Part shown: one piece after another, positions 33,947-59,358 of the stretch
Layout: each line of letters starts with the position of its first letter
How positions within the stretch are numbered: the stretch's first letter is position 1
Assembly: GCF_012932915.1 (NCBI RefSeq)
Contig: NZ_VCQU01000007.1
Span: forward strand, 186,001 to 250,000
Direction of reading: 5' to 3'
Length of the DNA: 64,000 nucleotides
DNA from: Antrihabitans stalactiti
GTDB lineage: Bacteria > Actinomycetota > Actinomycetes > Mycobacteriales > Mycobacteriaceae
Translations under genes and position numbers: made by a program
The notes under the pieces: generated by a model
The model's database searches: none
What the model saw: only the letters and a program-made list of their open reading frames with translations
Told to the model about the DNA's origin: nothing

Positions 33947-33947
33947 G

Positions 33948-36636: not shown

Positions 36637-37187
36637 CGGAGCAGACCCTTCAGCTGGAACGTGGGAGTCGCTGCAAGGGCGGCTTTTTCAGCCTCTCGCA
36701 CCACCTCGTCACGGTGCACGCCGAGCGGCATCTCCTGAATCTTTTCGTGCAGCTTGAGGATTGCGTTGAGCAGCATTTCCGGGCGCGGCGGGCAGCCGGG
36801 CAAGTAGATGTCGACAGGGACGACGTGGTCGACACCCTGCACGATCGCGTAGTTGTTGAACATGCCGCCGGACGACGCGCACACGCCCATGGCGAGAACC
36901 CATTTGGGTTCCGGCATCTGGTCGTAGACCTGCCGCAGAACAGGAGCCATCTTCTGGCTTACCCGGCCCGCGACGATCATGAGGTCGGCTTGGCGCGGAG
37001 ACGCGCGGAAGGCCTCCATCCCGAACCGCGCGATGTCGTAGCGCCCGGTGCCGGTGGCCATCATCTCGATGGCACAGCAGGCCAGGCCGAAGGTCGCCGG
37101 CCACAGCGAGCCTTTACGCATGTACCCCGCGATGCCCTCCACCGTGGTCAGCAGAAAGCCGCTCGGCAGCTTCTCTTCGAGACCCAT
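36633..37187 (-). CDS. nuoB: NADH-quinone oxidoreductase subunit B
   Basis: The 184-residue subunit holding cluster N2 next to the quinone. Ligands are the tandem Cys pair in [14 protein letters not shown], the Cys in [14 protein letters not shown], and the Cys in [14 protein letters not shown]. It follows nuoA by nine bases. Confidence 0.97.
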
Positions 37188-40108: not shown

Positions 40109-41860
40109 CTACCTTCGCGTCGACGCGGCAGCCGCCGCGATGAACGCGCCTGCAGGCTCCGGCCGTCCGTAGAAATAGCCCTGCGCGAATCGAAATCCGA
40201 TCGACTTGACGGCAGCATCCTGGCTCGCGGTCTCGACACCCTCGGCAATCACCGGCAATTCGAGCGCCACACCCAGCGCCGCCACTGCAGCGAGCAATCT
40301 GGGCGGTCCGGAGGTGGGCGTAATCGAGAAAACGAAGTTGGCGTCGAGTTTCAACAGGTCCGTCGGCAATTCCGCCAATCTGTTCAGCGAGGAATAGCCA
40401 CTGCCGAAATCGTCGATGGCTATTCGGATTCCGCGCTCCCGGAGCGTGCGGATATTTGCTATCGCAGTCTCCGTGTCGGCGGCGAGGAAGGTCTCGGTCA
40501 CCTCGAGTATCAATTGATCGGACGGCCAACCAGTCGCGCGTAGCGTGTCGTCGACCATGTCGGCGTAGTTCTTCTCGTTGATCTCCAGACCTGACACGTT
40601 GACGTTGAGATCCAGCCTCGTGATCACCGATCGTTGCATCTCGAGCGCGTCGAGGCACGCGCGCCGCAGGACGCTCTGGTCCAGGGCTGCGATGAGGTCG
40701 TTGTCTTCTGCGATGCGCACGATCTCGTCCGGCCGCAAGTCAGGTCGAGTCGCTGGGGCCCAGCGCAACAATGCTTCGACGCCGACGATATTGCCGCTCG
40801 CCAGCTCCACGATCGGCTGATAGTGCACGTTGATCGTATCGTCGTCGATCGCGTCGCGCAGTTCCGCGGCGAACGGCGGCCACGCGCCCGATTCGATTTT
40901 CGTCCGGTTTCGGCCCGCACGCTTGGCTCGGTACAGCGCAATGTCGGCCCTACTGACCAGCGACGACGCCGATTCGCCCGGCTGCCATCGGGTGACGCCT
41001 GCCGAGCAGCCGATGCGGATCGACATCCGGAGCAACTCCGACATCCGGATGGCCTCGTCGTCGTCGGAATTCGGCATGAGGATCGCGAACTCGTCGCCGC
41101 CGTAGCGGGCGAACAGATGCTCCGGCCGGACCAGCCGACGGCCGGTCTTGGCTATGTGCCGCAGCGCTTCGTCACCGCCTGCGTGCCCTTGCCGTTCGTT
41201 GATCTCCTGGAACCGGTCGATGTCGATCAGGACCAGCAGCAACGTCTTGTCGTCTCGCTCCGCGCGCTCGATCTCGATGTCCAGACGCCGATCGAAACCA
41301 CGCCGATTGACCAGTCCTGTGAGGCTGTCCGCCTCGGCCGCCGAGGCCAGCCTGCTCAGCACGAAGACTGTCGTGCCGACCAAAATCACGACCGAAGCCG
41401 CGGAAAGCCCCGCCCACCAAGAAAGTTCGGGGCGAATTGCAGGAAGGACCAGGCAACCGGCTACGCACGCACCGATCTGCAAGCTAGCGACGGTCAGCGA
41501 GAAGAAGAACCCCGCGAGTGCGGAGAACAGCACGTAATTCGTCGCTACTGCGACAGTCCCGATCGAAGTGGTCTGCGCGTAGGTGCCGACCGTCATGACT
41601 GCAATGCCGAACCACGTCAGAGCCTCGTAGTGGCGGCGCGTGAATCGACACCCGAACGTGAGCAACACGACGGCGAGAATTGCCGCGAGACCCGCAGTCG
41701 CATACGACAACGGGGTCGTCGCCTTCGCCGGTGCAAGGCCCGTGATGACGAATCCGATGAGCGACCCGAAGGTCGCCAGCGTGCCGGTGGTCCTCGCCAT
41801 GACCGCAGGGGTGGCGAGCGCCGCAGGCCTGAGCAACCATTCGATTCGTGAACTGGGCAT
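40109..41860 (-). CDS. Membrane GGDEF-EAL cyclic-di-GMP protein (first of pair)
   Basis: A 583-residue protein: a hydrophobic N-terminus with about six helices (20-165), a GGDEF domain (GGDEF at 254-258) and an EAL domain (EAL at 362-364). The cyclase motif is intact, but the inhibitory RxxD is RPEH. The EAL domain keeps LEVTE, DDFGSGYSS, KLD and AEGVE, so phosphodiesterase activity is possible as well. ATG at 41860 follows directly on the stop of the upstream paralogue (TGAATG), so the two are coupled. Confidence 0.93.
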   Translation of the reverse strand: MPSSRIEWLLRPAALATPAVMARTTGTLATFGSLIGFVITGLAPAKATTPLSYATAGLAAILAVVLLTFGCRFTRRHYEALTWFGIAVMTVGTYAQTTSIGTVAVATNYVLFSALAGFFFSLTVASLQIGACVAGCLVLPAIRPELSWWAGLSAASVVILVGTTVFVLSRLASAAEADSLTGLVNRRGFDRRLDIEIERAERDDKTLLLVLIDIDRFQEINERQGHAGGDEALRHIAKTGRRLVRPEHLFARYGGDEFAILMPNSDDDEAIRMSELLRMSIRIGCSAGVTRWQPGESASSLVSRADIALYRAKRAGRNRTKIESGAWPPFAAELRDAIDDDTINVHYQPIVELASGNIVGVEALLRWAPATRPDLRPDEIVRIAEDNDLIAALDQSVLRRACLDALEMQRSVITRLDLNVNVSGLEINEKNYADMVDDTLRATGWPSDQLILEVTETFLAADTETAIANIRTLRERGIRIAIDDFGSGYSSLNRLAELPTDLLKLDANFVFSITPTSGPPRLLAAVAALGVALELPVIAEGVETASQDAAVKSIGFRFAQGYFYGRPEPAGAFIAAAAASTRR

Positions 41861-43603
41861 TCAGCGTCCGAATGCGTCAGCAGGTTGCGCTTCCCCGAAC
41901 AGCGACCCCTGAGCGAATTGGTAACCGTGCGCAATCAGCGCTTCGACCTGCGCCGAATTCTCCACTCCACGAGCGATGACAGGCAAGTCCAATGCGTCGG
42001 CAAGCGCGGCGACGACGCCGATGAGCGACGGACCGGCGGACTCCTGCGTCGCAGCGGCCACGAATTTGCGGTTGACCTTGGCCATATCGATCGGCAGCGT
42101 CTCCAACTGGCTCAGTGAAGAGTAACCGCCACCGAAATCGTCGATGGCGATGCAGATTCCACGATCGCGCAAGGCCCGCAGGTTTCGAACGACAGCGGGG
42201 GTTTCGTAGTCGAACACAGCTTCTTGAACCTCGAGAACCAGTAGACCGGCAGGCCAACGTGTCCGTTTCAGTATCTCCTCGACAGTCGCCACGTAGTTCC
42301 GTTCCGCCAGTTCTCGCCCTGAAACGTTGACGTGCAGAAATGCGCGCTGACTACGCTGAGCGAATTCCGCGACCTCCCGGCACGCACGCTCCAGCACGAT
42401 GCGGTCGAGGGCTGCGATGAGGTCGTGTCCCTCGGCAACGCGGATGGCTTCAGCGGGGGTGATGCCTGGATCGGCACCGGACCTCCACCGCATCAGCGCC
42501 TCGTACCCGACGATGTCGCCATCTCCGCCGAGGCGAACGATCGGCGCATAGTGGACGGCGATGTCGGCCTGTTCGATCGCCTTTCGCAACTCCGACGCGA
42601 CAGCCGAAGCGTGCACCGGTTGCACCGCGGTCTGGCTTCCGCCGGAGTGCTTCGCCTTATAGAGAGCGATATCGGCACGACCGACCAACAGCGATCCCGA
42701 TTCACCCTGCCGCCACGACGTCACACCCGCCGAGCAGCCGGTCGAGATCGATGCGCGAAGGCGCTCGCTCAACGCGACCGCTTCGTCTTCTGTCGCTTCG
42801 GGCAACAACAACGCAAACTCGTCGCCGCCGTAGCGGGCGAGCATCATCGTTTTGTCGATGTGACTTCGCCATACGTCGGCGACCTTCCGAAGAACCGCGT
42901 CGCCGACATGATGGCCTTGCGAATCGTTGATCCACTTGAATCGATCGAGATCGAACAGGACCAGAACAGGCCGCCCGCCGGACCGCTTTGCATCCGCGAG
43001 TGCGAAGCCGAGTTGGTGGTCGAAGCCGCGCCGATTCAGCAGCCCAGTCAGACTGTCGACGTTGGCATCCGAGGCGAACCTGCTCAGAATTCCGACGGAT
43101 CCAGCGATCAGCAGTGTCCCTGCGGCTGCCACGATCCCCGCGGCCCAGGTGAGATTATGCCGCGCGCCAAGGCCGACGACGACGCACGCCACAGCAACCG
43201 CATTGATGACGACTGCGTGCGTCCACGCGAAGAACAATGCAGCGGACACTCCGATGCACACCGCAAAGCTCGCCAGGCCTACCGCTGCGGCGTCGTCGGT
43301 CACCAAAGTCAGGCCGAAGGCGAGCGAAACACAACCCAGCAACGCGAGAATCTCGTAGTGGACGAGCGACAGCCGATAGCCCCACACTGCGGTCGCGATT
43401 CCGATCGCTGTAGCCAAAGCAGCGGCCGAGTACACCACCGGCGTCGCCGAATCAGTGGCGATTTGCGACGCGATGATTGCGCCGTGGATACCGCCGACGG
43501 CGTACATCGCACCAATTACCCGGCCGATCACCGCCGGAGTCGCCAGCGCGGAGGGTGCCTGGAGCCACACCTGCTGCAGCCTCGTGACCCGCAGCCCCAC
43601 CAT
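41861..43603 (-). CDS. Membrane GGDEF-EAL protein (second of pair) with degenerate EAL site
   Basis: A 580-residue paralogue of the next gene with the same layout: about six N-terminal helices, GGDEF at 259-263 and EAL at 368-370. The GGDEF motif is intact, and no RxxD precedes it. In the EAL domain, DDFGGGYSS and LEVQE remain, but the KxD motif is KVN (Asn511) and AEGVE is ARGVE (Arg545 for Glu). These changes should harm metal binding and catalysis. It is divergent from BVMO 1 across 111 bases. Confidence 0.93.
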   Translation of the reverse strand: MVGLRVTRLQQVWLQAPSALATPAVIGRVIGAMYAVGGIHGAIIASQIATDSATPVVYSAAALATAIGIATAVWGYRLSLVHYEILALLGCVSLAFGLTLVTDDAAAVGLASFAVCIGVSAALFFAWTHAVVINAVAVACVVVGLGARHNLTWAAGIVAAAGTLLIAGSVGILSRFASDANVDSLTGLLNRRGFDHQLGFALADAKRSGGRPVLVLFDLDRFKWINDSQGHHVGDAVLRKVADVWRSHIDKTMMLARYGGDEFALLLPEATEDEAVALSERLRASISTGCSAGVTSWRQGESGSLLVGRADIALYKAKHSGGSQTAVQPVHASAVASELRKAIEQADIAVHYAPIVRLGGDGDIVGYEALMRWRSGADPGITPAEAIRVAEGHDLIAALDRIVLERACREVAEFAQRSQRAFLHVNVSGRELAERNYVATVEEILKRTRWPAGLLVLEVQEAVFDYETPAVVRNLRALRDRGICIAIDDFGGGYSSLSQLETLPIDMAKVNRKFVAAATQESAGPSLIGVVAALADALDLPVIARGVENSAQVEALIAHGYQFAQGSLFGEAQPADAFGR

Positions 43604-43678: not shown

Positions 43679-43714
43679 TTGACGGACTGACATATCAGTC
43701 GCTTTAATATCCGC
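43679..43714 (+). promoter_or_regulatory. Promoter with operator in its spacer (BVMO 1), probably leaderless
   Basis: TTGACG (-35, 43679-43684) is followed at once by the palindrome GACTGACATATCAGTC (43685-43700), then GC, then TTTAAT (-10, 43703-43708). The ATG lies six bases beyond the -10 box, so transcription should begin at or next to the start codon. A repressor on the palindrome would block both boxes. The esterase promoter has the same layout. Confidence 0.8.
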
Positions 43715-45292
43715 ATGAGGTCAGAACAGCCCGAGTACGAGGTGGCAATCATCGGCGCAGGCGCGGGCGGCATCTGCGCTGGAGTGAAGCTCGCCGAAAT
43801 CGGCGTGACCGACGTGGTGCTCATCGACCGTGCGAACGGGATGGGCGGAACCTGGCTGTTCAACACCTACCCCGGCGTCGGTGCCGATCTGCCGACCCTC
43901 GCCTACCAGTTCTCGTTCGCCCGCAAACACGACTGGGATCGATTCTTCGCCAGTGGTAAGGAGATTCAGGAATACCACCTGGAAGTCGCACGCGCGGCGG
44001 GCCTCGACCGAAAAGTTCGACTCGGCACCGACATCGTCAAAGAAGAATGGGACGAGGCAAACCACCTGTGGCGCTTGCACATCGCCGGCGGCGGGCAGAT
44101 CACCGCTCGGTTCGTCATCAGCGCCGTCGGCGCCTATCTGCGGCCGAAAGACAAGCCGGCCATCCCTGGGCTCGACGATTTCGCGGGCGAGGTCATGATC
44201 CCGGCTGCGTGGAACCACGACTACGACTTTCGCGGCAAACGAGTCGGCATCATCGGCGTCGGATCGAGCACGGTGCAGATCGCTCCGTCGATCGCACCGC
44301 TGGTCGAGCACCTCCACATCTACCAGCGCACTACCCAGTGGTACTTCCCGAAACCCGACTTCGTGATGCCGGGCTGGCTGAAGCAAGTTCTGCGAATCCC
44401 CGGTGTGGCCGGCGTCCTCCACGACGGAATCGTCCTCGGCGTCATCGAACTCGCGTTGCGCGTCCTGGTCCACACGCCGAGTCGGCTGTTCAACGCGGCG
44501 TCGTGGCCGTTCGACTCCGTCGCGCGCAGTCTCTACAAGGGCTGGCTCCGAATCAAGGTGCGCGACCCAGAGATTCGTCGCAAGCTCGTTCCGGCCTACG
44601 GACCCGGCTGTACGAGGGGCACTCTCGGCGGCGATTACCTTCCCGTCTTCAATCGCGAAAATGTCGAGCTGGTAACCGATCCCATCGCCCGCATCACCGC
44701 AGCGGGCATCGAATGCTCCGACGGGACAACCCGCGAGATCGACGCGTTGATCTTGGCTACCGGCTACGAGGTGTTCTCCGATCCGGAAAGCTACCGCGAA
44801 GGCGCGGTCGTGGGTCGGGACGGCTTCGATCTCGGGACGTTCTTCAACGAGCAGGGCTTGCAGGCGTATCACAGCACCGCGGTGGCAGGGCTGCCCAACC
44901 GCTGGATCATGGTCGGCCCGTACTCCTGGACCGGCACCGCATTCCACTACATCCTCGAGAACGCGATGCGAAACATCAACCGCGCCATCGGCGAAGCTCG
45001 TTCACGTGGGGTCACGAAGACCGAGGTCCGCAAGTCCGCACAGGACCGCTATCACGCCGAGCTGATGAGAAAAGGCCGCAACATCGCGTACTACTTCTCC
45101 GTCCATTGCGCAGGGTCGAATACGTACTTCGTGAATTCGCAAGGTGATTCGCCGTACGTGCGCCCAGCAACGTTGCTGCAGAACCGTCGCGACAGTGTCA
45201 ACTACCCCCTCGACGACTACACCTACGAGACGTTGCCTGTCGGCGACCACAGTGAGAGGCCACTCGATGCGCTTCAAAGCCAACCCAATTGA
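43715..45292 (+). CDS. Baeyer-Villiger-type flavin monooxygenase 1
   Basis: A 525-residue FAD/NADPH enzyme. FAD Rossmann motif GAGAGG is at 14-19, then GGTWLFNTYPGVGADLP; the NADPH motif is IIGVGSSTVQI. The segment corresponding to the BVMO fingerprint FxGxxxHxxxW is FAGEVMIPAAWN (156-167), with Ile162 in place of His. The predicted reaction converts a ketone to an ester or lactone, but N- or S-oxygenation is also possible. There is no ribosome-binding site at the ATG, in keeping with a leaderless mRNA. Its 3' end overlaps the SRPBCC gene by 26 bases. Confidence 0.9.
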   Translation: MRSEQPEYEVAIIGAGAGGICAGVKLAEIGVTDVVLIDRANGMGGTWLFNTYPGVGADLPTLAYQFSFARKHDWDRFFASGKEIQEYHLEVARAAGLDRKVRLGTDIVKEEWDEANHLWRLHIAGGGQITARFVISAVGAYLRPKDKPAIPGLDDFAGEVMIPAAWNHDYDFRGKRVGIIGVGSSTVQIAPSIAPLVEHLHIYQRTTQWYFPKPDFVMPGWLKQVLRIPGVAGVLHDGIVLGVIELALRVLVHTPSRLFNAASWPFDSVARSLYKGWLRIKVRDPEIRRKLVPAYGPGCTRGTLGGDYLPVFNRENVELVTDPIARITAAGIECSDGTTREIDALILATGYEVFSDPESYREGAVVGRDGFDLGTFFNEQGLQAYHSTAVAGLPNRWIMVGPYSWTGTAFHYILENAMRNINRAIGEARSRGVTKTEVRKSAQDRYHAELMRKGRNIAYYFSVHCAGSNTYFVNSQGDSPYVRPATLLQNRRDSVNYPLDDYTYETLPVGDHSERPLDALQSQPN

Positions 45293-45803
45293 GCCCAACA
45301 GCTATGAAGCCTTCTTCGCCGAGGCACCGTTTCTCAGCTACATCGAATACGAATACGACGCCACCCCCGAAGAAATCTGGCCGGTCATCTCAGGACCACG
45401 GATGTGGTCGTGGCTGCCGACCGTGTGGGGTTGCCGCTATCCGGAAGGCGAGGAAGTCGGTCCCGGCACCGTGCGCGACTTCCAAATGTTCCTCCACCAC
45501 TGGCTGATCTTCGCCCAGCACGAGCGGATACTGCACTGGGAGAAGGGCTCCCACCTCGTCTACACAGCGGTCGACGCGACCCTCCCCGTGTTCGGCTCCT
45601 GGTGCGAGCGATACGCCATCGAGCCGATCGATGGTGGCACCCGAACGCGACTGCGGTGGACGCTGGCGGTCAAGCCGCGCTATATCGGGTGGCTGCCCGC
45701 CAAATGGTTTGCCGTAGCACTGAATCCGATACTCCGGTTCGGACTTCGAGCGCTTGTGCGCGAATTGCCGTCACGGCGCGGACCGTCGTATGCGCGCGGC
45801 TAG
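45267..45803 (+). CDS. SRPBCC (START-like) family protein
   Basis: About 178 residues, cytoplasmic. SYIEYEYDATPEEIWPVISG, then WSWLPTVWGCRYPEG and a long C-terminal helix (WFAVALNPILRFGLRALV) fit the polyketide-cyclase/SRPBCC hydrophobic-pocket fold. It probably binds or presents a lipid-like substrate. ATG at 45267 lies within the end of BVMO 1, so both genes share a transcript. A distant paralogue is at 55151. The stop overlaps the convergent TetR gene by four bases. Confidence 0.82.
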   Translation: MRFKANPIEPNSYEAFFAEAPFLSYIEYEYDATPEEIWPVISGPRMWSWLPTVWGCRYPEGEEVGPGTVRDFQMFLHHWLIFAQHERILHWEKGSHLVYTAVDATLPVFGSWCERYAIEPIDGGTRTRLRWTLAVKPRYIGWLPAKWFAVALNPILRFGLRALVRELPSRRGPSYARG

Positions 45804-46417
45804 CCGGTTCCGAACCCTGCCCGAACGAAGTCGGTCAGCCCGGCACAGACTTGGTCGGGCTCCATCCCGTCTTCGCCGTCGCGAACCGCCGACACTATGG
45901 CAGCCGTCATGATCGACAGCAGCACTTCCCCAGCGACTTGGGCGTCCAGGCTCGGATCGAGAAACCCGCGCGAGATGCCGTTGGCAACATGCTCGGTCGC
46001 CGTGGCGCTGTACGTACCCAAGCTCTGCATGATCCGCTCGATCACGTGACCGTCGATCGACGATGCTTCGAACAGCATGAAGTTCATCATGCCGGGCTCG
46101 GCGTCGTTCAGTTCGAACACGCGAGCAACCACTTGGCGGAAGTTTGCACAGAACTCGTCGAGTGTGGCAGTCGATTCGGCGGCGACGGAACCCAGCGCGC
46201 GGCGTCCGATCAAATCGAGGCAATGATCGATCACGGCGTCGAGGATGTGTCGCTTGTTGTCGAAGTAGTTGTAGAACGTGCCGTGGCTGACACCGACCCG
46301 CGCGACAATGTCGGCGACTCCGATATTGCGGTAGCCCTGGCTCAGGAACAGTCCGTATGCGGCCTGCACTAATTCGGCGCGGCGAACGGCGTTGTGGTCC
46401 AACGCAGTCGATGTCAT
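45800..46417 (-). CDS. TetR-family regulator 1
   Basis: A 205-residue protein with the N-terminal TetR helix-turn-helix RRAELVQAAYGLFLSQGYRN, then VGVSHGTFYNYFDNKRHIL. The ligand domain is unassigned. ATG at 46417 overlaps the stop of TetR 2 as ATGA, so it is the second gene of a two-regulator operon. Confidence 0.92.
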   Translation of the reverse strand: MTSTALDHNAVRRAELVQAAYGLFLSQGYRNIGVADIVARVGVSHGTFYNYFDNKRHILDAVIDHCLDLIGRRALGSVAAESTATLDEFCANFRQVVARVFELNDAEPGMMNFMLFEASSIDGHVIERIMQSLGTYSATATEHVANGISRGFLDPSLDAQVAGEVLLSIMTAAIVSAVRDGEDGMEPDQVCAGLTDFVRAGFGTG

Positions 46418-47091
46418 ACCGACACCGTCATAGGTGCGCACAGACCACGCATCATGATGTGGACGACTGCCCCGATGTAGCGCTCCCGATTCTCCGGGCT
46501 GCCCTCGCCGCGAAGTTCCTGCAACAGGCCGGGCAGGATCAGCATCAAGATCATGTGGGCGAACACCTGGGGATCGACATCGGACCGGACGAATCCGCTC
46601 TTGATCCCCCGCCGCAGCGACTTGACGAGGAAGTTCGCCGCAAGTTGCTCGAGACCCAGCACCCGATCCTTGAGCTCCTGATCGATTGCGCTCGCCTCGA
46701 CGAGGATGAGGCGCAGGAATTCCGGCTCTCGTTCGATCAGTGCAAAAGCCCGATTGGCGGCCAATTGAATCGTCTCCACCAACTCGGCAAGGGAGGTGGG
46801 CGTCGACGCCAGCGTCTCGGGATCGACCGCCTCGAACAGCCTTTCCACGCTGAAATCGAAGACGTGGTCGAGGATCTCGCGTTTGCTCGCGAAGTAGCGA
46901 TACACAGTCCCCTGGCCGACGCCCGCGTGTGCAGCAAGGTCGGAGATGCCCGTCGCCTCGTAGCCTCGCTCGGCAAAGACGACATAGGCAGACTCCACGA
47001 TCTGCCTGCGGCGTCGCTCCGCCAGGCCCGCCTCCTTCGGCCGCCCTCGGCGAGGCGCCGAATCGGCGTCCACGTTCGGATCTGCGGTCAT
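46414..47091 (-). CDS. TetR-family regulator 2 (operator in its own promoter)
   Basis: A 225-residue protein with the helix-turn-helix RRRQIVESAYVVFAERGYEA, then AGVGQGTVYRYFASKREIL. The basic N-terminal arm (PRRGRPKEAGLAERRRR) may add minor-groove contacts. The shared palindrome lies 52 bases upstream of its ATG, next to a TTGATA -35-like box on its strand. This makes it the leading candidate for the regulator that reads the GACTGA-N4-TCAKTC sites; that link is inference. Confidence 0.92.
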   Translation of the reverse strand: MTADPNVDADSAPRRGRPKEAGLAERRRRQIVESAYVVFAERGYEATGISDLAAHAGVGQGTVYRYFASKREILDHVFDFSVERLFEAVDPETLASTPTSLAELVETIQLAANRAFALIEREPEFLRLILVEASAIDQELKDRVLGLEQLAANFLVKSLRRGIKSGFVRSDVDPQVFAHMILMLILPGLLQELRGEGSPENRERYIGAVVHIMMRGLCAPMTVSV

Positions 47092-47142
47092 GAGGGGCTT
47101 TCCTGACTATGATCGGTCCCGGGGTTAATCTTTCAGGACATC

Positions 47143-47164
47143 GACTGATGTATCAGTCTATCAA
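47143..47164 (-). promoter_or_regulatory. Operator in the TetR 2 / ABC1 intergenic region
   Basis: GACTGATGTATCAGTC (47143-47158) has perfect 7-base arms. On the minus strand TTGATA (47164-47159) abuts it in the same way as the -35 boxes of the other two promoters. The -10 region on that side (TGTCCT) is poor. The site could also control the divergent ABC1 gene, whose start is 66 bases away. Confidence 0.7.
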
Positions 47165-47224
47165 GCCCGTCCTGCGCGGCGCGATACGCGAGCGCCGCTG
47201 TGTCGACCGGAAGGCGCCCATGTG

Positions 47225-48613
47225 ATGGCAGATCGCGTACCGACCTCCCGTCTCGCGCGCAGCGGCAAGATCGGCAAATTCGCGGCGCGGCAAGCGGTTC
47301 GAAACGCACGACTGCGCTTCGCCAAGTTGGCCAATCCGAAGAGCGCCGATGACGAAGCCGTCGCGCAGTCGTTCATCGACGCCGCGGACGAGTTGGTCGA
47401 CATGCTCGGCGGCATGAAGGGTGCCGCCATGAAAGTCGGGCAGATGCTGTCGATCCTCGATGTCAAAATGGTCCCGCGCGAGCACCGGGCACATTTCCAG
47501 CGGCAGTTGGCGACCCTTCGAGACAGCGCACCGACGGTGTCGTTCGACAACATGCGCAAAGTGCTGGAGGACGACCTCGGCCGCCCGATCGACGAGGTGT
47601 TCGCCGAGTTCGATCCCGAACCAATAGCCGCCGCATCGATCGGCCAGGTGTATCGGGCACGACTGCACGACGGTCGCCCCGTTGCAGTCAAAGTGCAGTA
47701 CGCAAAGATCGCGTCGGCCGTTCGTGCAGATCTGAAAAACCTTGCGCTGCTTCTCAAGTTCTCGAAGCCGATTTTGCCGACGTTCGACTCACGCGCATTT
47801 CTGGACGAGCTTCGCTATCACCTCGAAGAAGAGCTCGACTACGTTCACGAGGCACAGACGCAGCACGAGCTCGCGATGTTCTACGCCGGACACCCGAACA
47901 TCTTCGTGCCCGACACCGTGCTGGAATTGTGCCGTCGACGCGTGTTGGTCACCGAGTTCGTCGAAGGCCTGCGGTTCGACGAGATCCGCGAGCTCGACGC
48001 CGAAACGCGCAACTCGGTCGGCGAGATCGTCTACCGCTTCTACATCGGCGCAATCTATCTCGACAACCAGTTCAACGGCGATCCACATCCAGGAAATGTG
48101 CTGCTGGCCAACGACGGTCGAGTCGCGTTCGTCGACTTCGGACTTTTCAAGCGAATGGAACCCGCCGCTGTCGACTTCGAACGTGCGGCCGTACACGCAG
48201 CTATGGACGGACGGGCCGACGATTTTCGGACGCTGCTCAGCGGCTCTGCGGTCCTACGTACCGAGTCGGACATCACGGCCGACGACTTGCTGGCCTACGC
48301 GTACGACGCGTCGCCATGGACCTTCGACGACGACGAACTGCAGATCACGGCCGAACTGGCCGGCGGGGCGCTGCTGCTGATCGCCGATCCGCGGTCGACC
48401 GACTTCGAGCGCATGCACAAGGAGAACCTGCCCGCCGAGCACTTCTTCTCGCGTCGCGCGGACTTCTACACCTTCGGCGTCATCGGCCAATTGGAGGCGA
48501 CGGCGAACTGGCACAGAATTGCGCGGGAATGGGTGTGCGGTGAGCCGCCGTCCACGCCCGCAGGCATCGCGGACGCGCAGTGGCGCGAGCGAAAGTTACG
48601 TGGACTCAGCTGA
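47225..48613 (+). CDS. ABC1/UbiB-family atypical kinase
   Basis: About 462 residues. The family's N-terminal KxGQ motif is MKVGQMLS. The kinase-like core has IAAASIGQVYRARLHDGRPVAVKVQY (an Ala-rich nucleotide loop and Lys), then FNGDPHPGNVLL and VAFVDFGLFKRM. Such proteins are linked to isoprenoid-lipid and quinone metabolism and have ATPase activity in some cases. ATG at 47225 was chosen; a GTG three bases earlier is equally placed behind GGAAGG. The 3' end overlaps the convergent TetR 3 by 18 bases. Confidence 0.9.
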   Translation: MADRVPTSRLARSGKIGKFAARQAVRNARLRFAKLANPKSADDEAVAQSFIDAADELVDMLGGMKGAAMKVGQMLSILDVKMVPREHRAHFQRQLATLRDSAPTVSFDNMRKVLEDDLGRPIDEVFAEFDPEPIAAASIGQVYRARLHDGRPVAVKVQYAKIASAVRADLKNLALLLKFSKPILPTFDSRAFLDELRYHLEEELDYVHEAQTQHELAMFYAGHPNIFVPDTVLELCRRRVLVTEFVEGLRFDEIRELDAETRNSVGEIVYRFYIGAIYLDNQFNGDPHPGNVLLANDGRVAFVDFGLFKRMEPAAVDFERAAVHAAMDGRADDFRTLLSGSAVLRTESDITADDLLAYAYDASPWTFDDDELQITAELAGGALLLIADPRSTDFERMHKENLPAEHFFSRRADFYTFGVIGQLEATANWHRIAREWVCGEPPSTPAGIADAQWRERKLRGLS

Positions 48614-49264
48614 GCGAGAACGGATTCCGACGCGGACGACCTCCGCGAATTCGTAGAGCTCGGTGACGAGAACTTCCACTTCTTCGAAGGTCGGTGAATC
48701 GGACGCATCGAGCAGCCAGTCGGCAATCAGCTCGAACATGCCGCCGATCGCACCGATGGCCATCCGGCTGTAATCCTGATTCTGATCCAGGTCGTCATAC
48801 CGGCGCCACAGCGTCTCGACAAAGGCCGCCGACCAGCGCCGGTTCTCCCTGCGCTGCCGTTCGACCGCTGGGGAAATTCCCGCAGCCTCGCCGAAGGTAG
48901 CCCGCGCAACCCGCGGATCGTCGACCAAGGCGTGCGCGAAGGTGGCGACAATCCTTGGGATCGGGTCGGTGTCGTCTTTGGGCGCCGTTCGAATGGCGGC
49001 CAGGACCTTGTCTTCGATCTGCTGGGTCAAATCTTGCAGAAGAGCGATGTAGCACGCCTCTTTGCTCGCGAACACCTCGTAGAACGCCTTGGTGCCTACG
49101 TAGGCGGTCTGGCAGATCTGCTCGATCGACGTACGCGGATACCCCTCTGCCGCAAACACTTCGAGCGCCGCGTCGAGCAGCTGACGACGACGCTGCAGAC
49201 GGCGTTCGTCGGCGTTGAGCCCCCGAATCCGCCGACCGGCCGGCTCACCCTCGATTGATGGCAT
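48596..49264 (-). CDS. TetR-family regulator 3
   Basis: A 222-residue protein with the helix-turn-helix RRRQLLDAALEVFAAEGYPR, then YVGTKAFYEVFASKEACYI. It begins two bases after the BVMO 2 stop and so is the last gene of the BVMO 3-SDR-BVMO 2-TetR 3 operon. A regulator at the end of the operon it may control is a common feedback arrangement. It is the second candidate for reading the shared operator. Confidence 0.9.
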   Translation of the reverse strand: MPSIEGEPAGRRIRGLNADERRLQRRRQLLDAALEVFAAEGYPRTSIEQICQTAYVGTKAFYEVFASKEACYIALLQDLTQQIEDKVLAAIRTAPKDDTDPIPRIVATFAHALVDDPRVARATFGEAAGISPAVERQRRENRRWSAAFVETLWRRYDDLDQNQDYSRMAIGAIGGMFELIADWLLDASDSPTFEEVEVLVTELYEFAEVVRVGIRSRSAEST

Positions 49265-49266
49265 TG

Positions 49267-50871
49267 CTACACGATAATCCCATCAGGTTGCGAACCAGAC
49301 ATCGTTTTACCAACAGGCTGTCGTGTTTCCAGCCGCTCGTAGGTGTAGTCGTCGAGGGAGAAAGTCTTGCTCGCCTTGGTCGACTGATAGGCAGTTGTCG
49401 GACGCAGGAACGAGAAATCGCCGTGATGGTCGATGTAGTACGAGTTCGCGTTCGCGCATGCCCTTCCGTGCATCAGCGTGTCGGTAGACCGCGGCCTGAT
49501 GAAGTCGTAGAAGCGGTCGTTGGCCTCCTGTGTGACGGCTACGGCAGTCGCGCCGCGGCGCCGCGCCTCCGTGATGACGCGCACCGCGTGCCGAGATGCG
49601 TTCTCCACCATCACATGCCAGGAGCTACCGCTCCACGCGTACGGTCCGAAGATCATGAACGTATTCGGCAACTGCGGCATGCTGACGCCTTCGTATGCCT
49701 TGGCCCGCTCGTTCTGGTAGAAGTCGGCCAAGTCGAAGCCGTCCCGACCCTTCACTGGTCGTAGCCGGAAAACCCGAGGGCTATGCGACATCTCGAAGCC
49801 GGTAGCAAGAATCAACACATCGATATCGCGCTCGATGCCGTTGACGTCCTTGACACCGGTCGGAGTGATCTCGGCGATCCCGTCCGTAATCAACTCGACG
49901 TTGTCTCGCGTGAACGTCTTGTAGTAGCTGTTCGACACACTCGGCCGTTTGCAGCCGAACCCGTACTCGGGAGTGAGTTTCCGGCGGAGTTCACGGTCAC
50001 GTACCTGGCTGAACAGAAATATCTGTGTCGCCCACGCAGGAATCTTCGAAATCGGTGCAACCTGCTTGCCGTACACGGTGATTGCGACCAGGCCTACCTC
50101 GACGATCGCGGCGACCACGCCGCGGACAGCGGACTGCAAGCCTGGCACGTACTTCAACAACAGTCGGGCGACCCGCGGAATTGCGAAGTCCGGCTTGGCG
50201 AATACCCAGATCGCTCGGCGCTGATACACATCCAATCGCCCGGCCACTTTGGCGACCTGGGGAATCATCTGCACCGACGTCGCGCCCGTTCCGATTGCCG
50301 CCACCCGCTTTCCGGCCAGCTCGTAGGTGTGGTCCCAGTTCTGAGTTTGGATGATCTTGCCTTCGAACCTGTCCAGGCCCTCGATATCCGGCGTCTTCGG
50401 CTCGACGAACGCACCGAGTGCTGTGATGACGAAGCGTGCCGTGACGACGGACCCTGAATCGGTAGTCAGCCGCCACAGGTGGTCGGCTTCGTCCCACTCC
50501 CGAGACATCACCTCGGTCCGCAGCCGTAGGTGGCCGCGCAGTCCGTATTTGTCTGCGCAGTGATCGATGTAGGCCTTCACTTCGGCACCCTTGGGGAAGG
50601 TCCGCGACCAGTCCGGATTCTTCTCGAACGAGAATTGGTACACGATGCCCGGAACATCCACCGCCACATCGGGATAGTGGTTGTTGTACCAGGTCCCACC
50701 GATATCGTCGGACCGCTCGATGATGACGAAGTCGGTGATCCCGGCGCGTTTGAGGGCGATCGCCGCACCGAGACCACCGAAGCCGCCACCGATGATGACG
50801 ACCTCGTACTGCGGGGCTTTCGGTCCTGAGTTCGAAATCTCTTCGGTATCGATCACATTCGAGCTGGTCAT
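49267..50871 (-). CDS. Baeyer-Villiger-type flavin monooxygenase 2
   Basis: A 534-residue protein. The FAD motif GGGFGG follows a ~23-residue N-terminal extension, then GGTWYNNHYPDVAVDVP; the NADPH motif is AIGTGATSVQM. The BVMO-fingerprint segment is FEGKIIQTQNWD (from Phe169), with Gln175 in the His position. ATG at 50871 follows the SDR stop by eight bases; longer starts run into the SDR gene. The substrate is unknown. Confidence 0.9.
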   Translation of the reverse strand: MTSSNVIDTEEISNSGPKAPQYEVVIIGGGFGGLGAAIALKRAGITDFVIIERSDDIGGTWYNNHYPDVAVDVPGIVYQFSFEKNPDWSRTFPKGAEVKAYIDHCADKYGLRGHLRLRTEVMSREWDEADHLWRLTTDSGSVVTARFVITALGAFVEPKTPDIEGLDRFEGKIIQTQNWDHTYELAGKRVAAIGTGATSVQMIPQVAKVAGRLDVYQRRAIWVFAKPDFAIPRVARLLLKYVPGLQSAVRGVVAAIVEVGLVAITVYGKQVAPISKIPAWATQIFLFSQVRDRELRRKLTPEYGFGCKRPSVSNSYYKTFTRDNVELITDGIAEITPTGVKDVNGIERDIDVLILATGFEMSHSPRVFRLRPVKGRDGFDLADFYQNERAKAYEGVSMPQLPNTFMIFGPYAWSGSSWHVMVENASRHAVRVITEARRRGATAVAVTQEANDRFYDFIRPRSTDTLMHGRACANANSYYIDHHGDFSFLRPTTAYQSTKASKTFSLDDYTYERLETRQPVGKTMSGSQPDGIIV

Positions 50872-50879
50872 ATGGTTCC

Positions 50880-51752
50880 TCAATGTGTGGCGGACGGAAG
50901 CCGAACTGTCTGAGCCGTGATTCGCGATTCGTATTCCTCGCGGCTCACGCGATCGATCGGTCCCATCACGCGGTCCGCGTTGGTGAGCCGCCTGCCCAGC
51001 TGCCAGATCACGTCGGGGACGAAAGCCGCGAGATTGAGCAGGGTGACAAGTCCGGGCGGTGCCCCGATCAACGCGGGCCTGCGATCGATGGTGGACACGA
51101 TGGTCCGCGCCACCCACTCGGGCGAGATGATTCCCAAGCGTTCGACGAAGCGGAACGGGATGCCGTCGACGAGCTGCGTCTGCACCGCGGCCGGCAGCAC
51201 AGCCGTGACCGAGACACCCGATCCAGCGAGTTCCTCGCGGGCACTTCGCGACAGCCCCGTCGCCGCGTGCTTGGACGCAACATAGCTGGCCAAACCCGGC
51301 GAGTGGATCTTGCCCGCAGCAGACGTCACGTTCACGATATGACCGCGACCGCGCGCCACCATTCGTGGCGCTACGACCTTGATCGAGTGGTAATGCGCCC
51401 AGAAGTTGACGGCCATCGTTGCGGCCGCAACAGCGTCGTCCTCCTCCAACAGCGGTCCGACTGGCATGATGCCTGCGTTGTTGACCACCACATCGATGGG
51501 ACCGAGGAGAACCTCCACCGCGTCGATGAACTTCTCGTACGACACTCTGTTGCCGACGTCGCAGGCAAAGCCGGTTACGTTGGGGCCCAACGCTGCAGCG
51601 GCAGCCAACGCCGCTTCGAGGGTCAGGTCACCGATAGCAACCCGCGCGCCGTTGTCGAGAAAGCGCTTGGCAGTGGCGAGGCCGATACCCCGCGCGCCGC
51701 CGGTGACGACAACGACCGCTCCGTCGAGGTCGATGATGGGATATCTGCTCAT
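50880..51752 (-). CDS. Short-chain dehydrogenase/reductase
   Basis: A 290-residue NAD(P)-dependent classical SDR. The cofactor motif TGGARGIG is at 17-24, then CDVGN, NNAGIMPVG and the catalytic NVTSAAG...YVASK. It most likely interconverts an alcohol and a ketone, which would feed or follow the flanking monooxygenases. ATG at 51752 overlaps the BVMO 3 stop as ATGA. Confidence 0.93.
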   Translation of the reverse strand: MSRYPIIDLDGAVVVVTGGARGIGLATAKRFLDNGARVAIGDLTLEAALAAAAALGPNVTGFACDVGNRVSYEKFIDAVEVLLGPIDVVVNNAGIMPVGPLLEEDDAVAAATMAVNFWAHYHSIKVVAPRMVARGRGHIVNVTSAAGKIHSPGLASYVASKHAATGLSRSAREELAGSGVSVTAVLPAAVQTQLVDGIPFRFVERLGIISPEWVARTIVSTIDRRPALIGAPPGLVTLLNLAAFVPDVIWQLGRRLTNADRVMGPIDRVSREEYESRITAQTVRLPSATH

Positions 51753-53317
51753 AGCGCCACGATCCCGACTGCTGCGTCGACGTCGCGCAGCTCCCCGACC
51801 GAACGGCGGCTCCCGAACTCGTAGTCCTCGAACCGGACATGCTTGCTGGAGCGTTGGGCCTTGAACAGCGACGTCGGCCGAATGTAGGGCATATCCCCCT
51901 GCGAGTTCACGTAATACGTCCGCAGGCCTTTGTTGACGACGTTGAAGTAGTACGCGATGTTCGCGCCCTGTTTCCGGATCATCCGGTGGTACGTCTCATG
52001 CGCCGACGCCGACACTTCGACGACGTCACTCTCGCGACGAAGTGCCTCGGCAATCACGTTGACCGCATGATTCGCGCCGATTTCGACCAGCGCGTGCCAG
52101 CCAGTGCCGATCCACGAATACGGCCCGACGAGCATCCACCGGTTGGGCAGCCCAGGGACACTGACGCTTTCGTACGCTTGCAGACGATGCTCGGCGTAGA
52201 ACCGGCCGAGGTCGAACTCGTCGCGCCCGACGACCGCACCCTCCCGGTAGCTCTCGGGATCGGAAAACAGCTCATATCCTGTGGCGAGAACTATTGCGTC
52301 ACAGGGATGCTCGATGCCGTCTGCCGTCACGATGCCGTTGGCGCTGATCCGCTCGATTGGCGACGTGATCAGAGCGACGTTGGCACGGTTGAATGCCTGG
52401 ACGAAGTCGTTCGACAACGTCGGCCGCTTTCCGAGCACGCCGTACGTCGGCGTCAAGGCACGGCGAGTTTCTTTGTCTGACACCTGAGTTCGCAGATATG
52501 CGCGATACAGCGCCCGCCCGAGCTTGTCGAACACTCGCGAACCGGGCCGGAAGAGCACGGCAGGCGTCTGCGTGATGGTGTCCAGACCGACCTCGACGGC
52601 GAGATAGCCTGCGCCGCTGAGCGTTGCGCCGACACCGGGCATTCCCAGCAGCTTCTGCATCCACGGCCGCATCCGGAAATCGGGTTTGGGTAGGCACCAC
52701 ACCGGCGTGCGCTGATACACCTCGAGTGTCCCGACTCTCGGTGCGATCGTCGGGGTGATCTGCACCGAGCTGGCGCCTGTTCCGATGATGGCAACCCGCT
52801 TGCCGTCGAGTTCGTAGGAGTGATCCCAGCCGACCGGGCGCAGGATTTTGCCCGTGAAGTCGCGGTAGCCCGGAATGCCTGGATCTTCCTTCGGGATGAT
52901 GTAGGCACCGATGGCCGAGATGACGAATCGAGCGGTGATCGGCGTGCCGGTCGCGGTGTGCAGGAGCCAGCACTCTGCATGCTCGTCCCACACCTGGCGA
53001 AGGATGTTCACGCCGAAACATGCATGCGGGAGGAGACCGAAGCGCTGTGCGACTTCGCGGTGGTAATCGAGGATTTCCCTGCGCAGTGGAAACATTCGCG
53101 ACCATCGCGGATTCTTCGCGAACGAGTACTGGTAGGTGAAGCCGGGAACGTCGACGCCCAACCCCGGGTAGTTGTTGTCACGCCAGCTACCGCCGAAATC
53201 GTCCTCCCGCTCGAGAATCACGAAGTCGTCGATTCCAGCCTGCTTCAGGCGAACTCCTGCGCAGATGCCGCCCGGACCCGCCCCGATGATCGCGACCTGG
53301 TAGTCGGGTTTTGTCAT
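51749..53317 (-). CDS. Baeyer-Villiger-type flavin monooxygenase 3
   Basis: A 522-residue protein. The FAD motif is GAGPGG, then GGSWRDNNYPGLGVDVP; the NADPH motif is IIGTGASSVQI. The fingerprint segment is FTGKILRPVGWD (from Phe154), with Arg160 instead of His. It is the closest in style to BVMO 1 (shared phrases such as ATGYELFSDPESYREGAVVG). ATG at 53317 has GGAGG ten bases upstream. It is the first gene of the leftward operon and lies opposite the esterase across 100 bases that hold two operators. Confidence 0.91.
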   Translation of the reverse strand: MTKPDYQVAIIGAGPGGICAGVRLKQAGIDDFVILEREDDFGGSWRDNNYPGLGVDVPGFTYQYSFAKNPRWSRMFPLRREILDYHREVAQRFGLLPHACFGVNILRQVWDEHAECWLLHTATGTPITARFVISAIGAYIIPKEDPGIPGYRDFTGKILRPVGWDHSYELDGKRVAIIGTGASSVQITPTIAPRVGTLEVYQRTPVWCLPKPDFRMRPWMQKLLGMPGVGATLSGAGYLAVEVGLDTITQTPAVLFRPGSRVFDKLGRALYRAYLRTQVSDKETRRALTPTYGVLGKRPTLSNDFVQAFNRANVALITSPIERISANGIVTADGIEHPCDAIVLATGYELFSDPESYREGAVVGRDEFDLGRFYAEHRLQAYESVSVPGLPNRWMLVGPYSWIGTGWHALVEIGANHAVNVIAEALRRESDVVEVSASAHETYHRMIRKQGANIAYYFNVVNKGLRTYYVNSQGDMPYIRPTSLFKAQRSSKHVRFEDYEFGSRRSVGELRDVDAAVGIVAL

Positions 53318-53351
53318 CAATTCGATCCTCCATTTTGCCTGCCTACGCCCA

Positions 53352-53367
53352 GACTGACACATCATTC
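53352..53367. promoter_or_regulatory. Operator copy facing BVMO 3
   Basis: GACTGACACATCATTC matches the shared operator with one arm imperfect (TCATTC for TCAGTC). Its centre is 36 bases from that of the next copy, so both would lie on nearly the same DNA face spacing (about 3.4 turns). It overlaps the probable -35 region of the leftward BVMO 3 promoter. Confidence 0.65.
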
Positions 53368-53381
53368 ATTAAAAGTCGAGA

Positions 53382-53417
53382 TTGACAGACTGATACATCA
53401 TTCACTTTAATCAGCGC
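53382..53417 (+). promoter_or_regulatory. Promoter with operator in its spacer (esterase), probably leaderless
   Basis: TTGACA (-35, 53382-53387), then GACTGATACATCATTC (operator, 53388-53403), AC, TTTAAT (-10, 53406-53411), six bases and ATG. Spacing is identical to the BVMO 1 promoter at every step. Consensus-quality boxes suggest strong transcription when the repressor leaves. Confidence 0.8.
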
Positions 53418-54440
53418 ATGAAAATCGCTGCAGCGGTACATCGAAAGACACCGTCGATGATGACGGTCGAGAGCATTCCGGGTACGAGTGTGCGCTCCCG
53501 AATCCTCTCCGCACTGATCCGTGCGTTCGTGCGTCCGGTCCTCGTCGCGTTCGGGCGATGGCCCGCACTCCCCTGGCCGTACCGACTGGTCGACATTGCC
53601 GGACTGCTATTGCCCGCGTTGCGCGGAACGACGCGTGAGTGGATCGAGCTGCCCGACTGCCGCGCCGAATTGATCACCGGACCAGGCGCACAGCCACACG
53701 GCAAAGTGATTCTCTACCTGCACGGCGGCGGATTCATCACCTGTGGGCTGCGCACACATCGACGACTCGTGTCGCGACTCTCGGCGAATGCCCACGTACC
53801 GGCACTCAGCGTCGACTACCGGATGCTGCCCAAATCCCCCATCAGCGCAGCGGTAGACGATGCGCTCGCCGCACACGCGTGGCTGGTCGAACAGGGCTAC
53901 AGTCCCGCGAACATCGTGCTGGCGGGCGATTCCGCAGGCGGCTACCTAGCCCTCGCCACCGCACTAGCACTGGCAGAACGAGGCTTCGGCAAACCGGCTG
54001 GCGTGCTGTGCTTTTCGCCGGTCGTCGACCTCTTCCTCGCCCGGAGCGAGAGCCCTGATCGACGTTCCCGCGATCCACTCTTCCCGTTGGGTGCCATCGA
54101 GGCAGTGGCAGACATCGCGGCTGCCGCGCAAGCGCTGACAATGGTCGCCGGCGGGGGCGTCGCAACGAAAGACATTCTGGGCGCCGACCTTTCGACACTA
54201 CCGACAGTCTTGATCCAAACGGGTTCCGACGAGCTGCTCGCCGCCGATTCGCATGCACTCGCCGACAAGCTGGCGATATCGGGAGTTCCCGGCCGACTCG
54301 AACTGTGGGCCGGGCAGTTTCACGTTTTTCATGCGGGCGCAGATTTCGTCCCGGAGGGTAAGGCCGCTCTCCGACGCAGTGGCCACTTCATCCGCTCCCT
54401 GCCCTTCGCAAGCCAAGACCGCGAAGCGGAGTCCGCATGA
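53418..54440 (+). CDS. HSL-type alpha/beta-hydrolase (esterase/lipase)
   Basis: A 340-residue protein of the hormone-sensitive-lipase family. The oxyanion motif HGGG begins at His102, the nucleophile elbow GDSAG has Ser172, and acid and base are seen in GSDELLAADS and QFHVFHAG. It would hydrolyse the ester or lactone product of the monooxygenases, as LipR is thought to pair with MymA in M. tuberculosis. The start is the leaderless ATG at 53418. The next gene overlaps as ATGA. Confidence 0.92.
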   Translation: MKIAAAVHRKTPSMMTVESIPGTSVRSRILSALIRAFVRPVLVAFGRWPALPWPYRLVDIAGLLLPALRGTTREWIELPDCRAELITGPGAQPHGKVILYLHGGGFITCGLRTHRRLVSRLSANAHVPALSVDYRMLPKSPISAAVDDALAAHAWLVEQGYSPANIVLAGDSAGGYLALATALALAERGFGKPAGVLCFSPVVDLFLARSESPDRRSRDPLFPLGAIEAVADIAAAAQALTMVAGGGVATKDILGADLSTLPTVLIQTGSDELLAADSHALADKLAISGVPGRLELWAGQFHVFHAGADFVPEGKAALRRSGHFIRSLPFASQDREAESA

Positions 54441-55117
54441 GCAGCCCTTTCCTCGACCCGTCGATCAGCGACGGCGAGAAGTCGGTCTACATCCTCAGAG
54501 TCGACGGCGTCGACGGTGGCACGGAAGTCACCAGCCTCATCGAGCACGAGGACGACACCTACGTCTCCTCGATCTCAGCGAGCAGGGGCACCGAGTTCGC
54601 ATTCCTCGTCGAGCAGACCTTCCGTCGCAACGGCGCCACTATGGCCGCGCACTCTTATAAGGCGGAGACCCGCAGCGACGGCGATGTCGTGAGCCGCGAA
54701 GAGGGCTACTTCAGCCATACCAAACACATCCAGTTCGGCGGCAACGTCGCCGCGTTTCCTCGCGAGGTCATGCCTGTGATCGGCGGCCTGACGTTGCTGC
54801 GCGGCCTCGACTTTCGCAAGGGAACCAAACAGACCGTCGAGGTGTGGCTTGCCTTTTCGATCTGCTGGCCGCTGGAGGTGAAAGTCGAGAAGCACACTCG
54901 CGTAGATGTACCAGCAGGCAGCTTCGACGTGTGGCAGGTCCGAGTCCGACCGAGTTTCAGTCAGATCAGTGGACTCCTCGACAAGGTTGTCGCGGGGTTC
55001 TTGCCACCGTTCATCGCGCACTTCGAGACTGCGCAGGGCCACCGAATGGTGCGGTTCAGTTTTCCCAGCGGCCCGATGCCATGGAATCCGCGAGGCGTCC
55101 TCGAACTCTCGACATAG
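54437..55117 (+). CDS. Uncharacterised beta-rich protein (DUF3108-like pattern)
   Basis: A 226-residue protein without signal peptide or transmembrane segment. Alternating strands and phrases such as EEGYFSHTKHIQF, VDVPAGSFDVWQVRV and the C-terminal VRFSFPSGPMPWNPRGVLEL resemble DUF3108/LolA-type lipid-binding beta sheets, but I cannot confirm the family. It is coupled to the esterase gene by an ATGA overlap and followed by an SRPBCC gene, which suggests handling of a hydrophobic compound. Confidence 0.75.
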   Translation: MSSPFLDPSISDGEKSVYILRVDGVDGGTEVTSLIEHEDDTYVSSISASRGTEFAFLVEQTFRRNGATMAAHSYKAETRSDGDVVSREEGYFSHTKHIQFGGNVAAFPREVMPVIGGLTLLRGLDFRKGTKQTVEVWLAFSICWPLEVKVEKHTRVDVPAGSFDVWQVRVRPSFSQISGLLDKVVAGFLPPFIAHFETAQGHRMVRFSFPSGPMPWNPRGVLELST

Positions 55118-55150: not shown

Positions 55151-55756
55151 ATGGAATCAATGAAAATGCTGATGAAAGTCTTGCTTGTCGCGACCGTTCT
55201 GGCCGCTTTCGGCGTCATCGCCGCACCGGTGCTCGCCTACGTTTTGGCATCCGGCGGGCCGAGGTCCTCCGCCCGGTTCCGCGTGAAACCGGTGACGCAA
55301 GCCCACCTAGGAATGTTCGTCGACACCTTGGCGTCGTTCTCGGTGACGAGCCAAGTCGCATTTCCCGACTCACCGGAACGGCTGTGGAAGGCTTTGCTCC
55401 ACGAACGCGCGTACTCCTGGCTACCGTTCATGAAAGGTGTTGCGTACCTTGATGATCAACAATCGGTAGGCTCGCGTCGCGCAATCCTCGGCACTTTCCT
55501 GGCGCTACAAGAACAAATCATCGCGTTCGAGGAAGGTAAGCGGATCGCGTTCTCGGTGACCGGCGCTTCGCTCTACGGACTCGACGCAGGCATCCAGGAG
55601 TACGTCATCACGCCGACATCGAACGGCGGCAGCTTGCTCACCTGGACTGTTGCCGGATCACCCAAATTCGTCGGGTTCCTACCGCTGCGCCTCACAACGC
55701 CGTTCGTCCGACCGTTCATGAAGCGCAGCATCAAAGGCGTAGGCCGGCTCACTTAG
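55151..55756 (+). CDS. Membrane-anchored SRPBCC family protein
   Basis: A 201-residue protein. A hydrophobic N-terminal segment (about 6-32) may anchor or export it. The rest fits the SRPBCC fold (VAFPDSPERLWKALLHERAYSWLPFMKGVAYL, FLPLRLTTPFVRPFMKRSI). It is related in pattern to the 45267 gene. It is the last gene of the esterase operon. Its 3' end overlaps the convergent Mce-associated gene by eight bases. Confidence 0.8.
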   Translation: MESMKMLMKVLLVATVLAAFGVIAAPVLAYVLASGGPRSSARFRVKPVTQAHLGMFVDTLASFSVTSQVAFPDSPERLWKALLHERAYSWLPFMKGVAYLDDQQSVGSRRAILGTFLALQEQIIAFEEGKRIAFSVTGASLYGLDAGIQEYVITPTSNGGSLLTWTVAGSPKFVGFLPLRLTTPFVRPFMKRSIKGVGRLT

Positions 55757-56330: not shown

Positions 56331-56364
56331 ATTCTTTCCTGCCTTCTCATCGACACTTGTTGGC

Positions 56365-59356: not shown

Positions 59357-59358
59357 CG

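Follow-up and report, generated by a model that had tools for sequence, protein, structure and literature searches.

A repeated 16-base near-palindrome probably marks a conserved switch over a lipid importer and Baeyer-Villiger monooxygenase genes in Antrihabitans stalactiti

Results

A recurrent 16-base sequence in a monooxygenase and mce gene cluster

The stretch of Antrihabitans stalactiti DNA analysed here (assembly GCF_012932915.1, contig NZ_VCQU01000007.1, positions 186,001 to 250,000; hereafter, the window, 64,000 nucleotides) holds a cluster of Baeyer-Villiger monooxygenase (BVMO), TetR-type regulator and mce genes, among which a 16-base inverted repeat, a candidate operator, recurs. 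The cluster opens with BVMO 1 (43715-45292, plus strand), a Baeyer-Villiger type flavin monooxygenase that resembles cyclohexanone monooxygenases and other Baeyer-Villiger enzymes of solved structure, and SRPBCC 1 (Polyketide_cyc2; 45267-45803, plus strand, start inferred at MRFKANP). Two regulator genes follow on the minus strand, TetR 1 (45800-46417) and TetR 2 (46414-47091), the ATG of TetR 1 overlapping the TetR 2 stop codon by 4 nt (ATGA); the list of open reading frames (ORFs) starts TetR 1 at a GTG at 46441, and we used the ATG instead. Divergent from this pair lies the gene for an ABC1/UbiB-type atypical kinase (ABC1; 47222-48613, plus strand). A minus-strand operon then runs from BVMO 3 (51749-53317) through a short-chain dehydrogenase (SDR; 50880-51752) and BVMO 2 (49267-50856, start inferred at MTSSNV) to its last gene, TetR 3 (48596-49264), which is not conserved with the rest of the module; lying only a few bases after BVMO 2, TetR 3 is probably a target of the regulon and not its master. 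On the plus strand follow an alpha/beta hydrolase of the hormone-sensitive-lipase type (hereafter, the esterase; 53418-54440), a DUF3108-like protein (54437-55117, with a score under the Pfam cut-off) and SRPBCC 2 (Polyketide_cyc2; 55151-55756). The final unit, yrbE-mce (55749-64137, minus strand), comprises two yrbE permease genes (62399-64000 in the window, the second extending to 64137) together with a stretch (55749-62395) that holds an mce-associated gene and the six MCE-type genes mceF to mceA, of which two were compared with NCBIfam; among solved structures, yrbEA resembles YrbE1A of an Mce1 importer.

The original prediction had named four sequences of 16 bases within this cluster, and all four are present: site 1, GACTGACATATCAGTC (43685-43700), upstream of BVMO 1; site 2, GACTGATGTATCAGTC (47143-47158), between the divergent TetR 2-TetR 1 and ABC1 genes; site 3, GACTGACACATCATTC (53352-53367), which reads GAATGA-TGTG-TCAGTC toward BVMO 3; and site 4, GACTGATACATCATTC (53388-53403), upstream of the esterase, none being assigned to a strand. 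A direct scan of the window recovered their common form, GACTGA-N4-TCAKTC, at all four places, and sites 1 and 2 each possess two exact inverted half-sites around four central bases that are not palindromic. The intergenic position of all four sites holds with the start of BVMO 3 at the ATG at 53317, behind GGAGG; the first in-frame ATG, at 53365, would overlap site 3, and the start was corrected from 53365 to 53317. The exact form gives six oriented matches at these four places, with 0.03 expected and six or more in 0 of 100 shuffles. When two mismatches were allowed, 11 matches were found in the window versus 9.6 expected, with no excess over shuffles; this form is at chance level, which leaves the exact form as the informative one, and loose matches were set aside.

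Across the whole genome (6.76 Mb, 26 contigs) the exact form occurs at five places (seven oriented matches; reversed-pattern control, four), so its count by itself is close to chance and its clustering is the striking part. All five places lie on the contig that carries the window, inside 20.5 kb, and by arithmetic the chance of five random places landing in one such stretch is about 4 in 10^10. A motif occurring at a random rate genome-wide had been named as grounds for abandoning the regulon; the total is low, yet every exact place is clustered, and in spirit this is not random scatter. The fifth exact site, GAATGAGATATCAGTC when read toward yrbE, lies at 250173-250188 of the contig (window position 64173-64188, 173 bp past the window end), is followed by TG-TTAAAT and precedes the yrbE-mce unit. 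The proposal that one operator links the BVMO 1, TetR 2/ABC1, BVMO 3 and esterase units is supported, relatives bearing sites before the same gene types (see below), but was incomplete without this mce operon. With one mismatch, the form GAMTGAN4TCAKTC has 14 further places in the genome, none on this contig, and its reversed control has 16. Although BVMO homologues number 32 (E up to 1e-40) and yrbEA-type copies 12 (at least 41% identity) genome-wide, a complement that looks rich, exact sites are confined to the cluster.

The operator precedes the same types of gene in related genomes

Scanning named genomes with an alignment of TetR 2 yielded 79 loci, of which 77 were used, L164 and L165 being dropped as short matches in Acidimicrobiales. 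In these 77 loci GAnTGA-N4-TCAnTC matches 53 times, in 39 loci, compared with a maximum of eight matches and a median of zero for 179 other orders of the same half-site symbols, and four is the only spacer length between the half-sites that works. None of 58 exact sites, own sites included, falls inside a cluster-homologous gene. Sites stand before yrbE in records of Nocardia, Amycolatopsis, Antrihabitans, Mycobacterium, Mycolicibacillus and Mycolicibacter; Gordonia and Mycobacterium have sites ahead of BVMO 1 and BVMO 3, Mycobacterium ahead of the esterase as well, Antrihabitans ahead of ABC1 and the DUF3108-like gene, and two Nocardia ahead of TetR 2. Additionally, a one-mismatch form, GAATGGCATGTCAGTC, precedes the esterase in all seven Mycobacteroides-type loci, and one-mismatch forms were also found in other Gordonia, Tsukamurella ocularis and Williamsia faeni. 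Among loci collected later, four (L174, L175, L176 and L179) repeat earlier ones, and one that does not, G681, has two exact sites, both symmetric. A plasmid search returned a single distant Tsukamurella match. Genome-wide counts in relatives were not used as evidence, two exact GACTGA halves being matched in 56 of 301 family genomes, many of them probably unrelated.

GAnTGA-N4-TCAnTC also occurs just upstream of unpaired TetR 2- or TetR 1-like genes (L141, positions 9860 and 9919; L161, 9873; L073, 9341 and 9395; L077, 7256), and the GAnTGA-type half-site may be older than the TetR pair. Two sources of related sequence look mislabelled or contaminated: a record titled Kitasatospora arboriphila, which has the gene order of Williamsia muralis and matches a Williamsia-genus genome (G105), and a Bifidobacterium breve metagenome-assembled contig with TetR 2-like genes (loci L107 and L147).

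TetR 2 and TetR 1 travel as a pair

TetR 1, TetR 2 and TetR 3 all exceed the Pfam cut-off for the TetR_N DNA-binding domain (PF00440). The original prediction put the monooxygenase region under one TetR repressor; an operator-tied regulon stands, and control by a single TetR protein is probably wrong, given that 73 of the 77 loci have TetR 1 next to TetR 2 in the same orientation. Of the 59 unfused pairs, 42 show the 4-nt gene overlap seen in the window. In the other 14 of the 73 the pair is a single reading frame (seven Tsukamurella records and seven of Mycobacteroides type, three of these titled Mycobacterium sp.), and 3 of the 53 relative sites lie in two loci without TetR 1. The recognition helices are invariant in 13 aligned relatives of each protein (HGTFYNYF in TetR 1, GxGxxTxYRY in TetR 2). 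This coupling looks like that of partner subunits made in a fixed ratio. In Nocardia, the pair directly follows mce genes in 23 of 26 loci. TetR 3 had been listed among the candidate regulators, and as a cluster member probably co-transcribed with BVMO 2 it might act on the sites, as might a regulator encoded elsewhere; however, TetR 3 has a relative in none of the 77 loci, though 39 bear sites, and we regard this explanation as very improbable.

Half-sites are polar with respect to the gene

When the 22 distinct exact sites are read toward the gene, 17 place the strict half, TCAGTC, gene-proximal and the differing half (GAGTGA, GAATGA or GATTGA) distal, with one site reversed and four symmetric (two-sided sign test, 1.4e-4). 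Counted by genus-gene group, the ratio is 10 to 1 with three ties (p = 0.012). With one mismatch allowed (n = 36), sites divide 25 to 4, with four symmetric and three neither, and groups 14 to 3 with three ties (p = 0.013). These counts omit sites flanked by cluster genes on both sides, sites with no such gene within 560 bp, sites within a cluster gene and any locus that lacks TetR 1; genera were assigned from record titles, the three Mycobacterium sp. records being placed with Mycobacteroides.

Polarity of this kind bears on a rival explanation, that a TetR 2 homodimer alone binds the inverted repeat while TetR 1 is co-inherited and binds elsewhere or modulates TetR 2. By phmmer, the best match of TetR 2 in the PDB is FadR of Bacillus subtilis, whose operator has the form TGAnTGA-N4-TCAnTCA; both half-sites are exact GACTGA in sites 1 and 2 and in 16 of the 23 exact sites of paired Nocardia loci, and similar sites stand before TetR 2-like genes that have no TetR 1 (L141, L161 and L073). 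Against a homodimer stand the polarity of 17 to 1, the overlap in 42 of 59 pairs and fusion in 14 of 73, and the predicted Mce3R-like fold of one fused pair (see Discussion), and we consider it an unlikely, though not negligible, account of the sites.

The operator fills the spacer of candidate promoters

A -35-like TTGACG (43679-43684, plus strand) abuts site 1, and a -10-like TTTAAT (43703-43708, plus strand) begins 2 nt past it, 6 nt before the BVMO 1 ATG; at site 4, TTGACA (53382-53387) and TTTAAT (53406-53411) frame the operator in the same layout, again 2 nt past the operator and 6 nt before the ATG of the esterase. This box-to-ATG spacing would put the transcript start at the start codon, which suggests that the BVMO 1 and esterase messages are leaderless. 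In 22 distinct contexts from own and related loci, A+T makes up 82-100% at positions 4-8 beyond the operator. Five BVMO promoters from Mycobacterium records (L118, L138, L146, L149 and L150) have TTGACA directly against the operator, and TTGAC abuts the site in several BVMO promoters and in both promoters of DUF3108-like genes in Antrihabitans, whereas the yrbE promoters compared all lack it.

The last of these findings could be turned the other way, the pair acting as an activator on mce promoters that have a poor -35 and the site just upstream of the -10. The TTGAC beside the site at the BVMO and DUF3108-like promoters, missing at yrbE, gives this some footing, but an operator inside the promoter spacer is in the classic position of a repressor. 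The majority of studied TetR proteins, moreover, are repressors (PMC3511530), and activation appears improbable. The inverted repeats could also be RNA hairpins (terminators or attenuators) or a repeat family, and site 1 was scored terminator-like, with a 6-bp stem. Yet the asymmetric sites, in which GAGTGA or GATTGA faces TCAGTC, disrupt the stem with no compensation, the boxes that resemble promoters are found at the sites or beyond them, and the whole genome has just five places; of all the explanations weighed here, this one has the least to recommend it.

Two tandem ORFs of GGDEF-EAL type (40109-43603) lie next to site 1 and complex I (nuo)-like ORFs farther upstream (29008-37187), both by reading of the ORFs. 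The second of the tandem ORFs, of GGDEF type, begins 82 bp away from site 1 and is transcribed divergently from BVMO 1, so that this operator could serve it too; none of the 73 pair loci has a relative of it. ABC1/UbiB-type kinase genes are frequent neighbours of the TetR pair (37 of 73 loci), and such a neighbour is also present where a locus has neither mce nor BVMO homologues (L142, for example).

Sites away from the cluster

The strict form GANTGAYRYRTCAGTC was searched in 26 whole genomes, namely three of Antrihabitans and 23 pair-bearing genomes of Williamsia, Rhodococcus and Tsukamurella; its reversed control had no match in any of the 26. T. ocularis, which has exact sites, is outside this set, and W. 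faeni, with its one-mismatch site, is within it. In the A. stalactiti genome GANTGAYRYRTCAGTC marks four places, all inside the cluster, site 5 deviating from the strict centre. One Antrihabitans sister genome (G002) has four places, two of them in its cluster and one 343 kb away before an esterase homologue (40% identity), and the other (G003) has three, two in the cluster and one on another contig, again before an esterase homologue (39%). As far as sequence comparison goes, these distant sites speak for a regulator that would act in trans. De novo searches for palindromes in the roughly 930 bp leading to TetR 2 found none common to half of eight Williamsia-type or eight Tsukamurella loci; in four Rhodococcus loci six were found, each in two of the four and mostly G+C-rich.

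Discussion

The repeated 16-base sequence is real and probably marks a conserved switch over a lipid importer and Baeyer-Villiger monooxygenases, in Antrihabitans and in several related genera. We consider it likely that the sites are operators of a two-partner TetR 2/TetR 1 repressor controlling five units for import and Baeyer-Villiger breakdown. Comparison of related loci shows the sites, targets, pairing and polarity, and from these we infer binding, heterodimer formation, repression, ligand and substrate. TetR 2 and TetR 1, made from one operon, would form a repressor that binds GAnTGA-YRYR-TCAGTC or a near form, usually with TCAGTC on the gene side; where both boxes are readable the site fills the -35/-10 spacer, and the bound repressor would exclude RNA polymerase. 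The units under its control would be BVMO 1-SRPBCC 1, TetR 2-TetR 1 with the divergent ABC1, BVMO 3-SDR-BVMO 2-TetR 3, esterase-DUF3108-SRPBCC 2 and yrbE-mce. Release of the pair would depend on a hydrophobic ligand, probably the compound that is imported or its CoA derivative. The mce system may import a lipid-like ketone or alcohol, the SDR would convert the alcohol to the ketone, the BVMOs would insert oxygen and the esterase would cleave the resulting ester.

Several observations weigh against this repressor. Four of the 53 relative sites (in L126, L127, L146 and L150) lie more than 700 bp from any cluster homologue, three later non-repeat loci (G577, G434, of 7 kb only, and one in G167) have no site, and GAnTGA-type sites also accompany TetR 2-like genes that lack TetR 1. 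GANTGAYRYRTCAGTC is absent from all 23 pair-bearing Williamsia, Rhodococcus and Tsukamurella genomes searched, and the pair alone is therefore not predictive of this operator. One place in G002 (C1:901763-901778; L008, L076 8764) is unexplained, with no cluster homologue nearby; by reading of the ORFs it lies at the end of an MFS-type ORF, before a methyltransferase-like ORF. A scan for consensus sigma-70 promoters found none around sites 1, 3 and 4, the boxes at sites 1 and 4 being missed because the scan requires an A at -10 position 2. As for polarity, 9 of the 17 polar sites come from Mycobacterium and related sequences are not independent; reversed sites occur in the one-mismatch count; window site 4 is reversed relative to its esterase, and reversal is also seen in Amycolatopsis L100 and in one of the three exact T. 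ocularis sites (the other two being one that follows the rule and one symmetric); and the paired GACTGA halves of Nocardia read as homodimer sites.

Comparison with known regulators places the system near several families. KstR and KstR2 are cholesterol TetR repressors whose lipid catabolism regulon includes an mce operon (mce4); the score with the NCBIfam KstR model is 37.9 bits against a cut-off of 280, and the KstR operator is also different. Bacillus FadR (YsiA) is a single-gene homodimer with beta-oxidation targets, similar in operator form, but the NCBIfam equivalog score is 58.9 bits versus a cut-off of 200. A TetR gene beside a BVMO gene is familiar from EthR-ethA and other pairs, in which one regulator serves one divergent target. 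EthR differs in its larger operator motif, of several copies (PMC4482099); GACTGA and TCAGTC do not occur in the main text of that paper (its motif figures lie outside this check), nor do TetR or monooxygenase in the main text of PMC1810536.

The closest parallel is Mce3R of Mycobacterium tuberculosis, described in PMC11667970 as a double-TetR repressor of mce3. There, as proposed for the window, the targets of two unequal TetR halves are an mce operon and lipid-metabolism genes, and the predicted structure of one fused relative of the pair matches the Mce3R fold across both halves. Mce3R, however, is one chain with two TetR units, in place of two genes in the window (fused in 14 of 73 related pairs), and its operator is a 25-bp non-palindromic sequence in place of the polar 16-bp near-palindrome found here (PMC11667970); the window targets, moreover, are BVMO, SDR and esterase genes. 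Direct orthology does not follow from sequence: Mce3R is the top PDB match of the fused relative, but its N-terminal half aligns with the C-terminal (TetR 1) half of that protein, and the alignment is not collinear.

A stronger version of the proposal is one on which we are evenly divided. It holds that the pair works only as a heterodimer on a polar operator, with strict TCAGTC at the -10 and loose GAnTGA toward the -35, that it is the unfused form of an Mce3R-like double-TetR protein, and that it would control a widely conserved programme of Mce import and Baeyer-Villiger oxidation not found in the open-access literature searched. TetR operators, TetR control of mce and double-TetR proteins are already known; new, as far as that literature goes, are the operator, the regulon and the two-gene double-TetR form with a polar operator.

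For a group of mce operons, these findings would provide a candidate regulator, operator and target list, none of which is named in the open-access literature searched, together with a predicted type of chemistry, from alcohol to ketone to ester to acid plus alcohol. The operator would permit the regulon to be read from sequence in Nocardia, Gordonia and several mycobacteria, and the system offers a test of how TetR dimers may become obligate heterodimers and then fused double-TetR proteins.

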